NCBI RefSeq assembly: GCF_000616095.1
Contig: NZ_BAMS01000002.1
Location: 62,001 to 126,000, forward strand
From: Sneathiella glossodoripedis JCM 23214
Lineage (GTDB): Bacteria; Pseudomonadota; Alphaproteobacteria; Sneathiellales; Sneathiellaceae
DNA: 64,000 nucleotides
Direction: 5' to 3'
This document shows positions 41,264-46,082 of this stretch, in pieces. Each line of letters begins with the position of its first letter. Position 1 is the first letter of the stretch. The position numbers were made by a program, and so were the translations under genes. A model generated the notes under the pieces. It was not told the origin of the DNA and made no database searches. It saw only the letters and a program-made list of their open reading frames with translations.

Positions 41264-42582
41264 TAAACCTGTCCTTCGCGTAATAACTTCAGCATATCCC
41301 GTGTGCGTACGAATTTGCGTCTTGGGCTTTCATCCTTCGCCCGCTGTTTTTCAGCTTCGTTGATTTGTTCCCAATCAGAGAAGGTCACGGTTTCAATTCC
41401 CTTCTCCTGGCAATAGGCATCCAGCCCTTTGGCACCGGATTTACTTCCATCGCCTCCATCGCAATGGTCAGCGACAATAACATCGACAACTCTTTGGCTA
41501 TCCAATCTGTTCGTGCCAATCGTTCCCGATGGGCCACGTTTGGCCCAACCAACGACATACAGATGCTCATCCACTTTGCCATCGGTGTTTTTTACAACGC
41601 CTTTTTCGACGGGTAAGCCGCCAACATTGACCAGCTCATAGCCAATGCAGGTGACTAGCAGATCACAGGGATATTCAACAAACTCTCCGCTCCCGACAGC
41701 CTTGCCATCTTCGATCCGGTTCTTCTCAAAACGGACCTTTTCAATGCGATCATCACCGTATATGTGGGTGGGGGAGAGCAAAAAATCAAGGCTGAGCAAG
41801 CGTTTGCCGGCTACTGGCTTGTTAGCGGCATAGTCGCGCAGCAGGCTCAGGTTATTATTGACCACCTTTGTCTCTTTGGCATCTGTACCTTCAAAACTGT
41901 CAGGGATGAGCGCTGGATCCGTGACCGTGACTGCTGTGCTCAGATCCTTGAACTCACTCAGCTCTTTAGTTGAAAACTGGGCGTGTTCAGGGCCGCGTCT
42001 ACCAATTACGCGAACATGTTCAATTGGACTGTCAAAGATCATCTCGCGGGCATGATCCACAAGATCGCTATCTTTCATCTCTTCAGTACTGCTGAGCAGA
42101 ACACGGGCAACGTCTAGGGCGACATTTCCATTGCCGATTACAATCGCGTTCTTGATATTCAGATGTGGGACAGCGTTTCGGTATTCCGGGTGACCATTAT
42201 ACCAATAGACAAAGACCTGTGCGCCGAATACCCCTTCCTTGTCTTCACCTTCAATGCCCAATTCTCTATCTTTGGGGGTGCCGATTGCCATTACGACAAC
42301 ATCGTAAATTTCCCGCAATGTCTGCAAAGAAATATCATCACCAAAAGAGATATTCCCAACGAAACGGACATTTTCATTTTCCATTATCTTGTCAAAGGCG
42401 CGGCTGACATTTTTTGTCGTTTGATGGTCCGGCGCGACACCGGTGCGGATTAACCCATATGGGGTTGCGAGTTTTTCGAGGATATCGATTTCGCAGCCGG
42501 GACATTTGTCAATAAGCGCTCCTGCCGTATACATGCCAGCGGGGCCCGATCCAATAATTGCAACCTTCAGAGCATTACCCAT
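41263..42582 (-). CDS. Ferredoxin-NADP+ reductase, adrenodoxin reductase type
   Basis: A 439-residue FAD enzyme with the N-terminal dinucleotide motif IIGSGPAGMY, the second motif VIGNGNVALD, and RIGRRGPEHAQFS-like segment VIGRRGPEHAQFS. The late WAKRGPSGTIGTNR is a hallmark of the adrenodoxin reductase/FprA family. It would pass electrons from NADPH to a 2Fe-2S ferredoxin such as the one at 39402-39731. The start overlaps the paaX-like gene by eight bases. Confidence 0.94.
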   Translation of the reverse strand: MGNALKVAIIGSGPAGMYTAGALIDKCPGCEIDILEKLATPYGLIRTGVAPDHQTTKNVSRAFDKIMENENVRFVGNISFGDDISLQTLREIYDVVVMAIGTPKDRELGIEGEDKEGVFGAQVFVYWYNGHPEYRNAVPHLNIKNAIVIGNGNVALDVARVLLSSTEEMKDSDLVDHAREMIFDSPIEHVRVIGRRGPEHAQFSTKELSEFKDLSTAVTVTDPALIPDSFEGTDAKETKVVNNNLSLLRDYAANKPVAGKRLLSLDFLLSPTHIYGDDRIEKVRFEKNRIEDGKAVGSGEFVEYPCDLLVTCIGYELVNVGGLPVEKGVVKNTDGKVDEHLYVVGWAKRGPSGTIGTNRLDSQRVVDVIVADHCDGGDGSKSGAKGLDAYCQEKGIETVTFSDWEQINEAEKQRAKDESPRRKFVRTRDMLKLLREGQV

Positions 42583-43528
42583 CCTGTTCCTCCCTACCCA
42601 TCAGACCACCAAAGCGCTTTTCAAAGTCAGCGGATGCGGCCGGCAATGGGCCCCCGATTGTCTTTAAAACCTGCATCAGATGTATCTCCGCCTGCTGCCA
42701 GATCCGCTGGTAAATGTCGTGAAACAGGTCTCGCGCCCGCATACCGTGCCAGTTTTCAGGCAGCAATGTTTCTGGCAGCATCGGATCACGAAGCAGGGCA
42801 CGCCGATAGTCGTGCACAAGCAGGGTTCTGACGACGAATGCCTGTTGATCACTGAGCGTCTCGCCCTTTTTAATGGCTGTTTCAATGGGCTCAAAATGCG
42901 CGATGAAATCACTATAGCCTTTTTCAATTTCTTCCAGATTCCATCCTTTTTGCACAACGATATGGGCGCTTGGCTCCTCTGTCAGTGCAAATTCGGCGCC
43001 CTTGATAAAGGTGACATGCGACTGTACGCCAAGGTCTTCCACAAGTTGTGCGACCCGATTTGGCGGACATTGCGGATGGGCAAAAATGCCGGCGCCCAGA
43101 TCCCCAAATCCCAGCCAGCCCAGTTCAATTGCCAACTGGCGTTTCTGATCATCATTTAATTTGCGACGTTCAGAAAACAGCAGCGTCCATTCACCATCCC
43201 ATTCCTGCGGCAAATGGTTGTATATGCGCTTTGTTGCCTCTTCGAAGCGGTGTTGACCACTTTTGGTGAGGGTATAATAACTTTTGCGGCCCCGTTGTAC
43301 GCTGCTTAGCAATTGATCATTTTTCAGTCGAAAAACAGAAGTCCGCACAGCGCGTTCATTCAGGCCGAGACAGTCAACCAGATCGATCAGACTGCCAAGC
43401 CACACGGTGCCGCCATGGGGTGCAATGGAATCGCCCCAAATGGTGACCAGCAGAGAGCGTGCCTTCAAATTCAGTTGCTCAGGAAGTTTTGAGAGCCGTC
43501 GCGTCAGCGCCGGTATATCTCCGCCCAT
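42575..43528 (-). CDS. PaaX family transcriptional repressor
   Basis: A 317-residue regulator with the PaaX winged-helix N-domain (LKARSLLVTIWGDSI, RAVRTSVFRLKNDQLLSS, GRKSYYTLT) and the C-terminal PaaX domain (LLRDPMLPETLLPENWHG). PaaX proteins sense aryl-CoA esters such as phenylacetyl-CoA. No paa catabolic genes are present here, so its target may be its own operon with the reductase and phosphoesterase. A possible operator lies 21 bases upstream. Confidence 0.93.
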   Translation of the reverse strand: MGGDIPALTRRLSKLPEQLNLKARSLLVTIWGDSIAPHGGTVWLGSLIDLVDCLGLNERAVRTSVFRLKNDQLLSSVQRGRKSYYTLTKSGQHRFEEATKRIYNHLPQEWDGEWTLLFSERRKLNDDQKRQLAIELGWLGFGDLGAGIFAHPQCPPNRVAQLVEDLGVQSHVTFIKGAEFALTEEPSAHIVVQKGWNLEEIEKGYSDFIAHFEPIETAIKKGETLSDQQAFVVRTLLVHDYRRALLRDPMLPETLLPENWHGMRARDLFHDIYQRIWQQAEIHLMQVLKTIGGPLPAASADFEKRFGGLMGREEQDG

Positions 43529-43548: not shown

Positions 43549-43583
43549 ATACGATACGACTTTCTTTTGGTTGTGTATCATAT
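43549..43583. promoter_or_regulatory. Inverted repeat upstream of the paaX-like gene
   Basis: ATACGATAC (43549-43557) and GTATCATAT (43575-43583) match as inverted copies at eight of nine positions with a 17-base spacer. A widely spaced inverted site fits PaaX autoregulation. The right half lies inside the 64-bp direct repeat; the left half lies just outside it. On the minus strand the right half also contains TATGAT, a possible -10 box. Confidence 0.45.
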
Positions 43584-43621
43584 TGACCCAACTCCGGGCG
43601 AAGTACCAGTGAAATCTGTGT
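43558..43621. repeat. 64-bp direct repeat, left copy
   Basis: This 64-bp block, beginning GACTTTCTTTTGG and ending GAAATCTGTGT, recurs without a mismatch at 44677-44740. Identity stops abruptly at both ends. The copies bracket the plus-strand lipoprotein gene. Confidence 0.97.
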
Positions 43622-43687
43622 CGCGATAGGCCTGTCGAAGCAACAGGACACAATCTACACTATTGCATAAGACAATCATAATATTAA

Positions 43688-43715
43688 TTGACTGTATTTG
43701 ATTTTACTATACTAT
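43688..43715 (+). promoter_or_regulatory. Candidate promoter of the lipoprotein gene
   Basis: TTGACT (43688-43693) and TACTAT (43710-43715) at 16-bp spacing lie in an A/T-rich stretch 23 bases before the ATG. Both boxes lie inside the insert, so the cargo gene seems to carry its own promoter. Confidence 0.5.
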
Positions 43716-43738
43716 CACAACTAGAGGTGGAGGGCGAA

Positions 43739-44677
43739 ATGAAAAAATACATTTTTTGGGCTGCCATGACAATGCTCACAGCTTGTTCTGGCTTAAGTAC
43801 TGTTCCTACTTCAGGGGAACAAGCTTCAGGCTATGGATATGTTCCGCTTGATGGGCTTGCAGTAGAGTTTAACAAAAAATGTGTTGACCCAAATGCGGCT
43901 TTGAAACTGTTCCCTGACGTCACGCTAAGGTTTGCTGTGGGGAGTTACGACGTAAATGGAGAGTTAACTTATGGCCCCGCAACAGTTACAACAAAAGGTC
44001 AAACATACAAAGCGATACTGGATTATGTGAACATTGACGCTGTTCCAATCACCTTTCTGATTAGAAAAAGAATATCAAATGAAGATAATACTTTATGGGT
44101 TCCTCTCACAGCTCCTGTGCCAGATAAATTCTTAGTAATCGCATATGATGCAGTCCAGGTTATTGAAAAAGAACGGTTGCTTTCTAGTTCTGACGTAAGG
44201 ACAAATTTAACCACTACTTTTGGCGAAGTCAGAACAGATAAAAAATTTAAAGACTATGATCTTGTTACAATGCCAGTTTATATTGGTGTTGGCCTGCGGC
44301 TGATTGCAGATATCGTTGCGTTGGAAGGTAAAATAAACCTAAGCGGCCTTGGTGTGATCGGGGCTGAAGCAGGTAACAAGAAATTGACTGGTAAGCTGAC
44401 GGTGCAAACAATCGGTGTAAATGGTTCTGCAATTGGAACTATATTGCCTTTACCGAGTAAGTTGGATCAAACAACTATTGAAAATGGGATCCTCGCCTTG
44501 GGCAGCGGGCGAACTTCTCTCTATAATAAAACCGAAGAAAACAGGAACTTGTGGGTTACGCCTAGAGTGGTGGGGCTATATAGCCCCGTAGGAACGAATT
44601 CTAGCTTAATAAATGCGCTTTATTCTGCTTTATCAAAAGTACCTCCCAGATGGCAGGGTGACTGCACGGATAAATAG
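43739..44677 (+). CDS. Putative lipoprotein of unknown function, in a direct-repeat-bounded insert
   Basis: I do not recognise this 312-residue protein. It has a lipoprotein signal: MKK, a hydrophobic stretch, then the lipobox LTAC with Cys16 as the lipidation site. The mature part is mostly predicted beta strands with few Cys (for example CVDP near residue 41 and CTDK at the end). The codon use looks more A/T-rich than its neighbours. A GGTGGAGGG ribosome binding site precedes the ATG. The gene is on the opposite strand to its flanking genes. Its TAG stop has its last base as the first base of the right 64-bp repeat, so the cargo ends exactly at the junction. Confidence 0.85.
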   Translation: MKKYIFWAAMTMLTACSGLSTVPTSGEQASGYGYVPLDGLAVEFNKKCVDPNAALKLFPDVTLRFAVGSYDVNGELTYGPATVTTKGQTYKAILDYVNIDAVPITFLIRKRISNEDNTLWVPLTAPVPDKFLVIAYDAVQVIEKERLLSSSDVRTNLTTTFGEVRTDKKFKDYDLVTMPVYIGVGLRLIADIVALEGKINLSGLGVIGAEAGNKKLTGKLTVQTIGVNGSAIGTILPLPSKLDQTTIENGILALGSGRTSLYNKTEENRNLWVTPRVVGLYSPVGTNSSLINALYSALSKVPPRWQGDCTDK

Positions 44678-44740
44678 ACTTTCTTTTGGTTGTGTATCAT
44701 ATTGACCCAACTCCGGGCGAAGTACCAGTGAAATCTGTGT
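44677..44740. repeat. 64-bp direct repeat, right copy
   Basis: Identical to 43558-43621 over all 64 bp. It ends four bases before the stop codon of the minus-strand amidohydrolase gene. The period between copies is 1119 bp. Confidence 0.97.
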
Positions 44741-44744
44741 GACT

Positions 44745-46082
44745 TTAGCTAATCAGTTTTTTGGCAATGTGACTGTGTTCTGCCATCAATGCCTCCATAT
44801 CCAACCCGATTACAGCACCGTCGCTCACCCGCCATTTTCCGCCTACCATCACATGATCAGCTTGGTGGGCGCCGCATAAAAGAAGTGCGGCAAGTGGATC
44901 ACCAGCTCCCGAAAAGCGGGGCTCATCCAGCTTGAAAAGTGCCAGATCCGCCTGCTTGCCAACGGTAATCTGGCCAATATCATCGCGTCCAAGGCACTGG
45001 GCCGATCCTTTGGTCGCAAATTCGAAAGCTTTTTGATGGGTCATTTCAGTGGCTTCATAGCGCAGGCGACCAAGCAAAAGCGCCTGACGCACTTCCTGAA
45101 TAAGGTTGGATCCATCATTGGAGGCGGAACCGTCTACACCAAGCCCAACAGGTGAGCCTGCCTCTTGTAATTCCAGGGTTCTGCAAATGCCGGAGCTGAG
45201 CACCATATTGGAAGAAGGGCAATGACAAATCCCGACGCCGGCCTCACCCAGCCGTTTAATTTCGTTATCGTCGAAATGAATGCCATGCGCAAGCCAGGTT
45301 TGATCTCCAAGCCATCCCACACTTTCCAGATAATCAAGCGGGCGCAGCGAAAACATCTTTTCGCAAAATGCTGTCTCGTCATGGGTTTCGGCAAGATGCG
45401 TGTGCAGGCGAACGTTCAGGTCTTTGGCAAGCTTGGCGCTATCCTTCATCAACTGGGTGCTCACCGAAAAAGGGGAGCAGGGGGCGAGTGCAATCTGAAC
45501 CATCGCGCCATTGCCGCGCTCGTGATAACGGTTAATCAGACGCTCGCTGTCGTTTAAAATTGCCTCTTCACTCTGCACTGTGCTCGGCGGCGGCAGTCCG
45601 CCCTGATCTTCCCCAAGGCTCATGGAGCCGCGCGTCAGCATCGCCCGAATGCCCATCGATCTTGCCGCTTCAACCTGTATGTCGATTGCCTCTTCAAGGG
45701 GACCGGGGAATAAATAGTGATGATCCGCCGCGGTGGTGCAACCTGAAAGAAGTAATTCAGCCAGCGCAAGCTGCGAGGAGAGCGCAATCATTTCTTCGCT
45801 CAGACCCGCCCAAATGGGATATAGCGATTGCAGCCATGGGAATAGTGGTTTGTTAAGGGCGGGCGGACATGCGCGCGTCAGTGTCTGGTAAAAATGATGG
45901 TGAGTATTGATCAGGCCGGGCAACAGGACATGTTCACTGGCATCGAAAACCTCAATACCTGTCATGTCTTTTGGTGTTTCACCAGAGCCGTAGGTCGCGG
46001 TTATCTGGTCATTTTCCACGAGGATGCCGCCGGCACAATTGTCGCCCAATACCGCGAGCGGATTTTTGATCCAGATTTTCAT
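44745..46082 (-). CDS. 8-oxoguanine deaminase-like amidohydrolase
   Basis: A 445-residue metal-dependent deaminase of the AtzB/TrzN/guanine-deaminase superfamily. It has the metal ligands in LINTHHHFYQTLTRA, HTHLAETHDE and VGLGVDGSASNDGS. The LFPWLQSLYPIW segment and the overall pattern match enzymes annotated as 8-oxoguanine deaminase, which convert that base to urate; hydroxyatrazine-type substrates are an alternative. It is divergent from the crp-like gene and may once have been followed directly by the paaX-like gene. Confidence 0.88.
   Translation of the reverse strand: MKIWIKNPLAVLGDNCAGGILVENDQITATYGSGETPKDMTGIEVFDASEHVLLPGLINTHHHFYQTLTRACPPALNKPLFPWLQSLYPIWAGLSEEMIALSSQLALAELLLSGCTTAADHHYLFPGPLEEAIDIQVEAARSMGIRAMLTRGSMSLGEDQGGLPPPSTVQSEEAILNDSERLINRYHERGNGAMVQIALAPCSPFSVSTQLMKDSAKLAKDLNVRLHTHLAETHDETAFCEKMFSLRPLDYLESVGWLGDQTWLAHGIHFDDNEIKRLGEAGVGICHCPSSNMVLSSGICRTLELQEAGSPVGLGVDGSASNDGSNLIQEVRQALLLGRLRYEATEMTHQKAFEFATKGSAQCLGRDDIGQITVGKQADLALFKLDEPRFSGAGDPLAALLLCGAHQADHVMVGGKWRVSDGAVIGLDMEALMAEHSHIAKKLIS

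Follow-up and report, generated by a model that had tools for sequence, protein, structure and literature searches.

A lone, apparently foreign lipoprotein gene between two copies of a 64-bp target in Sneathiella glossodoripedis

In the 64,000-nt stretch of the Sneathiella glossodoripedis JCM 23214 genome that was analyzed here (hereafter, the window), a solitary lipoprotein gene was found between a PaaX-like repressor gene (paaX) and an amidohydrolase gene, bracketed by two identical 64-bp direct repeats. Comparison with other species makes it very likely that an ancestral order A-B-C was converted into A-B-insert-B-C by capture of a foreign 1055-bp fragment, where A would comprise paaX and one half of a candidate operator, B the 64 bp, and C the end of the amidohydrolase gene. 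As to how this happened, we propose with moderate confidence that capture during repair or replication inserted one gene and left a long duplication of the target.

The left copy of the duplicated target (B1, 43558–43621) lies on the paaX side and the right copy (B2, 44677–44740) adjoins the amidohydrolase end; both were located by a repeat scan and assigned as ancestral DNA by comparison, and they are identical at 64/64 positions. Between them lies the insert (43622–44676, plus strand, 1055 bp), which carries the plus-strand lipoprotein gene of 312 aa (43739–44677). The stop codon TAG of this gene occupies 44675–44677, its final G also opening the right repeat. Both neighbors are on the minus strand, paaX at 42575–43528 to the left and the amidohydrolase gene, with its ORF intact, at 44745–46082 to the right, and the gap between these two ORFs is 97 bp once 1119 bp are removed. 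All of this agrees with the initial annotation, which had described two perfect 64-bp direct repeats, a single plus-strand gene between minus-strand neighbors, a stop codon sharing its last base with the right repeat, and a normal spacing of about 97 bases after removal of 1119 bp. It had further noted no transposase or integrase between the repeats and a lipoprotein of no recognizable family, and indeed no recombinase or transposase gene was found in the insert, whose only gene has no family match.

As the initial annotation had proposed, the 64-mer was searched for in the whole genome (3.63 Mb, 12 contigs) and in related genomes. Full matches were returned at these two places of the own genome only and at none in the congeners, and the remaining matches in both covered 14–26 bases (E at least 0.18). 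Within the window, no third copy was present at up to three mismatches, with 0 matches also in 100 shuffles. Among exact direct repeats on the 790-kb contig with copies 100–8000 bp apart, the 64-bp repeat is the longest, followed by one of 54 bp. No Rfam match was found at the insertion site (E up to 1).

To read the state of the site before insertion, the paaX locus was compared across the genus, the ancestral state being derived from other species rather than from strains of the same species. Of the 24 genomes of the genus, 21 (this strain's among them) gave a match to paaX, and 19 relatives' loci were compared; one further genome (G012) gave a weak partial match from which no locus was obtained. 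In 10 of the 19 congeneric loci (L003, L004, L005, L007, L008, L009, L012, L013, L016 and L018), the amidohydrolase gene lies directly upstream of paaX without the lipoprotein gene, while in eight it was not found within 1.5 kb upstream of paaX and one locus (L017) stops at a contig border. With the flanks joined, the aligned protein ends are 100 bp apart in the window (1219 minus 1119), compared with 137 bp in L003 and 122 bp in L004. The lipoprotein gene was looked for in 78 relatives, including 23 congeners, and none had a match, although not all of these genomes are complete (of the 79 searched with the own one, 57 reach a completeness of 90% or more with contamination of 5% or less). The empty sites support the earlier proposal that foreign DNA was inserted between the amidohydrolase gene and paaX; the presence of both repeats and the gene in all relatives would have spoken against it, and 0/23 congeners matched either the gene or the full 64-mer.

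The comparison also bears on the origin of the repeat unit itself. When the joined site was aligned with those of L003, L004 and L005, the outer flanks aligned on both sides, and within the 64 bp, CAATATGATACA was exact in all three relatives, while TTTCACTGG was exact in L005 and differed at one position in L003 and at two in L004. Beyond the nearest species the spacer is little conserved, and the between-species alignment is partial. In addition, an inverted repeat GATAC-N17-GTATC is located upstream of paaX at 43553–43579. It was found upstream of paaX in six of the 19 relatives' loci (L003, L004, L005, L006, L007 and L010), was absent in the other 13, and has one match only in the 790-kb contig; a search for the same inverted repeat with a spacer of 18 returned no operator, the right spacer being 17. 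We take GATAC-N17-GTATC as a candidate PaaX operator. It straddles the border between A and B1, and the right repeat contains only a half of it; since one half lies within B1, the candidate operator would have remained complete beside paaX after the insertion. Because the 64-bp repeat aligns with the relatives' spacer DNA and holds half of this motif, it is best read as duplicated target. Judged from the nearest species, the 64 bp would thus be ancestral target DNA duplicated at the site, not att DNA known from an element.

The insert has a G+C content of 41.5%, compared with 47.3% for the contig, where 3.9% of all 1055-bp windows are this low; across the 64-kb window, 1 of 630 is. Similarly, GC3 is 35% in the lipoprotein gene versus 54 and 55% in its neighbors. 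Taken alone, this composition signal is modest. The insert nevertheless appears foreign because its gene was not found in 78 relatives and has few homologues, which occur in distant bacteria. No terminal inverted repeats of at least 12 bp, the threshold for listing, were found on the insert. Pairwise comparison of the insert ends with the adjoining flanks gave 0 bases in common in all four comparisons, and the right end of the insert coincides exactly with the lipoprotein stop codon. A sigma-70-like candidate promoter, TTGACT-N16-TACTAT (43688–43715, plus strand), matches the consensus inside the insert; sites of this type numbered seven on both strands of the region against 3.2 expected (sd 1.9), and the match is thus weak evidence that the insert may carry its own promoter.

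The product of the inserted gene begins with MKKYIFWAAMTMLTAC and contains the sequence LTAC, which by a general rule we take to be the lipobox. It belongs to a rare unnamed family: searches of Pfam, NCBIfam and PADLOC (E up to 1) and of PDB sequences (E up to 1) returned nothing for it, and its best PHROGs hit had an E of 0.2. A structure was predicted with pLDDT 66.8, and a fold search with it returned no match at E ≤ 0.001. Homologues were found in one Nitrospira metagenome genome, one Variovorax, an IMG/VR (viral-collection) contig and a Caballeronia plasmid; a sample of 398 genomes of the phylum yielded two more apart from the own genome, and in a sample of 385 from the class the own genome alone had the gene. 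The tblastn identities were 44, 39, 45, 48, 39 and 30%, and 28% for the Caballeronia N-terminal piece. In the Caballeronia plasmid (L026, 3605–3967 and 5001–5387), the homologue is interrupted by an IS5-family transposase gene and a caspase-domain gene adjoins it. Neighbors of some homologues include a caspase-domain gene and, in Variovorax, a DUF6088/AbiEi-like and AbiEii pair, and an ORF near the homologue on the viral-collection contig (L025) resembles an integrase by eye, while the L048 homologue lies between genes read by eye as coaE and a mechanosensitive channel, with no mobile or defence surroundings. These gene neighborhoods suggest mobile or defence surroundings for some homologues, and the gene product is probably an outer-membrane lipoprotein with an accessory role, encoded by mobile DNA. 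No long flanking repeats were found around the homologues in L023, L024, L025, L048 and L049, the long repeat family of L048 being a short-period repeat outside the gene; none was seen in L026 either, where the region compared was the C-terminal piece with 1.5 kb to its left and right and so included little true upstream flank.

A short homology was found at both borders of the duplicated block. B and C share their first six bases, GACTTT, one copy (r1, 43558–43563) being the first bases of the duplicated block and the other (r2, 44741–44746) lying directly 3′ of it, where two of its bases fall within the stop codon of the amidohydrolase gene; both are on the plus strand. In the window, at least six equal bases occurred in 607 of 1,560,204 sampled placements at distances of 30–200 bp (3.9e-4), a frequency to be read knowing that the match was spotted post hoc and that several comparisons of that kind were possible. 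The position of GACTTT at both borders points to short-homology template switching, and bears on the duplication alone, not on how the insert entered. In such a process, a growing or broken strand would depart from the chromosome just 5′ of r2 during repair or replication, be joined to or copy a foreign fragment of 1055 bp bearing the candidate promoter and the lipoprotein gene, and resume at r1, 64 bp back, on the same or the sister strand. B would be duplicated because the segment between r1 and r2 would be copied a second time, and neither the candidate operator of paaX nor the ORF of the amidohydrolase would be disrupted, which may explain why the insertion survived. Ku would probably not be involved: it was found in 0/24 genus genomes, although the control search did find it in Bacillus subtilis, and capture by Ku/LigD end joining was rejected on this ground.

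Several points count against capture during repair or replication as the best explanation. Random capture gives no reason to expect an insert that stops exactly at a stop codon, the insert ends have no base in common with the flanks, and eight of the 19 loci showed no amidohydrolase gene upstream of paaX and 13 no operator motif. Nine tyrosine-integrase-domain genes elsewhere in the genome could also act in trans. A trans-acting tyrosine recombinase might have integrated a small circle with the 64 bp as att core, an event that yields the A-B-insert-B-C topology and for which the integrase-like ORF beside the viral-collection homologue also speaks. However, B is ancestral local DNA with no further genome copy, so that the circle would need a 64-bp copy of the species' own spacer; the insert has no recombinase gene, neither a complete inverted core nor core-type arms were seen by eye inside B, and a 20-mer of B was unmatched in viral contigs. 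We therefore consider such integration unlikely. The att-like mobile cassette of the initial annotation is accordingly less supported, the repeat being ancestral target with two full genome copies only, and is less likely than insertion during repair with duplication of the target. A site-specific integrative element with its recombinase inside was discarded in view of the lone gene without family match, and the ancestral chromosomal origin of the 64 bp argues against an integron gene cassette. A transposase that cuts DNA with a 64-bp stagger, or a relative of an insertion sequence that has lost its transposase, would account for the presence of a target duplication, but transposon target duplications usually measure a few to about 30 bp, far below 64 bp, and with neither terminal inverted repeats of at least 12 bp nor a transposase in the insert this origin has very little probability. 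Equally improbable is an assembly artefact in which the second repeat or the entire insert is a joining error. The genome is indeed a draft in 12 contigs, but the gene lies more than 100 kb inside the 790-kb contig, 64 bp falls within ordinary sequencing read lengths, and each repeat copy adjoins its own ancestral flank, which makes the assembly duplicate considered in the initial annotation unlikely. Of its three options, recombination-driven integration comes closest to our reading.

Homologous recombination would require no special enzyme. In a model described for Streptococcus pneumoniae (PMC3784515), tandem duplications arise in transformation when two positions on sister chromatids pair with the donor DNA. 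Adapted to this locus, a donor carrying B or its flank would pair with the sister chromatid and leave a small merodiploid duplication, the foreign DNA between the copies being our own extension of the model. So extended, it can be a serious rival, but the donor must already join the gene to a near-identical B, 64 bp is short, and GACTTT at both borders is not predicted; its probability is low. A two-step origin, with slippage between the GACTTT copies producing a tandem B-B and foreign DNA then entering at the joint, is lower still in our estimate: slippage would give exactly the 64-bp tandem duplication, but the incoming DNA would then have to land at the junction or a few bases away, whether accidentally or through a preference for GACTTT. 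Finally, a sequence-specific enzyme not seen so far might insert single genes just 5′ of GACTTT-like sites with no target duplication, and inserts at r1 and r2 of two chromosomes would then recombine into A-B-insert-B-C. We regard this as very unlikely; if true, long target duplications would be scars left by a sequence-specific system that mobilizes single genes, rather than by repair accidents.

To find comparable arrangements, the whole 790-kb contig (C11) was scanned for exact repeats and compared with itself by BLAST. No other perfect repeats of about 64 bp bracketing a gene were found on it, and several pairs of 80–93% identity were present. The closest look-alike (335820–335881 and 337920–337983; L065 1820–1881 and 3920–3983) is a repeat of 62–64 bp and 92% identity that brackets one PAS sensor-kinase gene; it holds a terminator-like hairpin, and its right copy also takes in the very end of a chemotaxis-receptor gene. 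Only four of the 24 genomes of the genus, counting this strain's, gave a match to its neighbor gene, one of them weak, and neither the kinase nor the chemotaxis gene was found within 1.5 kb downstream of the two good non-own matches. This sensor-kinase locus is possibly an older case of the same kind and was not counted as a second case. A 147-bp repeat of 93% identity at 191805/192602 (L057 9805–9951 and 10602–10748) was rejected as the C-terminal end and terminator common to tandem genes of the VPLPPA type, the near-identical ends of which look as if shaped by gene conversion. A 114-bp pair at 767103/768546 presumably belongs to an RHS-type gene, as its translated motif looks. At 150762–157034 (L055), large adjacent repetitive blocks lie about 3.1–3.2 kb apart with 80–90% identity, which are probably tandem paralogues of a repetitive protein. 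Further pairs from the BLAST self-comparison were 158999/159664, 208899/209631 and 400727/401120 (81–82% identical) and 787123/789695 (30 bp, 93% identical).

The arrangement resembles the insertion with long target duplication described in Helicobacter pylori (Nobusato, Uchiyama, Ohashi and Kobayashi, Gene 2000;259:99–108, as related in PMC1643837, PMC3874152, PMC3031569 and PMC4978471), for which these accounts give long and variable repeats of the order of 100 bp and a frequent restriction-modification cargo. Common to both, as far as these accounts describe the class, are a gene apparently unlinked to a known mobile element, detection by comparing filled with empty sites, absence of the inserted gene at the relatives' site (here the 10 of 19 loci and the 78 relatives), a repeat that is ancestral DNA of the empty site (here from a between-species, partial alignment), and a length, here 64 bp, much above that of transposon duplications. 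Unlike the Helicobacter cases described there, which compare two Helicobacter pylori strains, ours compares species with species; a different lineage carries a solitary lipoprotein gene as cargo, without the restriction-modification link, and the duplicated block is set off by a 6-bp microhomology. In the literature search, no published lipoprotein example of such an insertion was found, and one may still exist. Homology-facilitated illegitimate recombination and merodiploid formation likewise capture foreign DNA by one-sided homology (as outlined in PMC3784515 and PMC3240628), and donor pairing on sister chromatids can duplicate chromosomal DNA (PMC3784515); unlike in the former process as outlined there, no homologous anchor is known here and the duplication is 64 bp only. 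In the short-homology tandem duplications of PMC11111574, border homologies, of 9 bp there, also set the repeat unit, but the cases it describes are plain tandem copies with no foreign DNA captured between them. Among the Arabidopsis transposed genes described in PMC2869330, a flanking repeat of >30 bp matches the relative's orthologous site in 13/18, and a long target duplication is one explanation offered there; these genes are eukaryotic, and excision of circles between the flanking repeats is considered in that paper as well.

A lone foreign-gene insertion with duplicated target is an already described, rare and poorly understood route without a visible transposon, and the locus is a clean new example of this known, mechanistically open kind. 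The restriction-gene pattern of Helicobacter is thereby extended to a different lineage and to an ordinary lipoprotein gene. Solitary genes without a visible vehicle are common in genomes, and a locus with a readable empty site, a duplicated block and border homology provides a testable footprint of vehicle-free gene movement.
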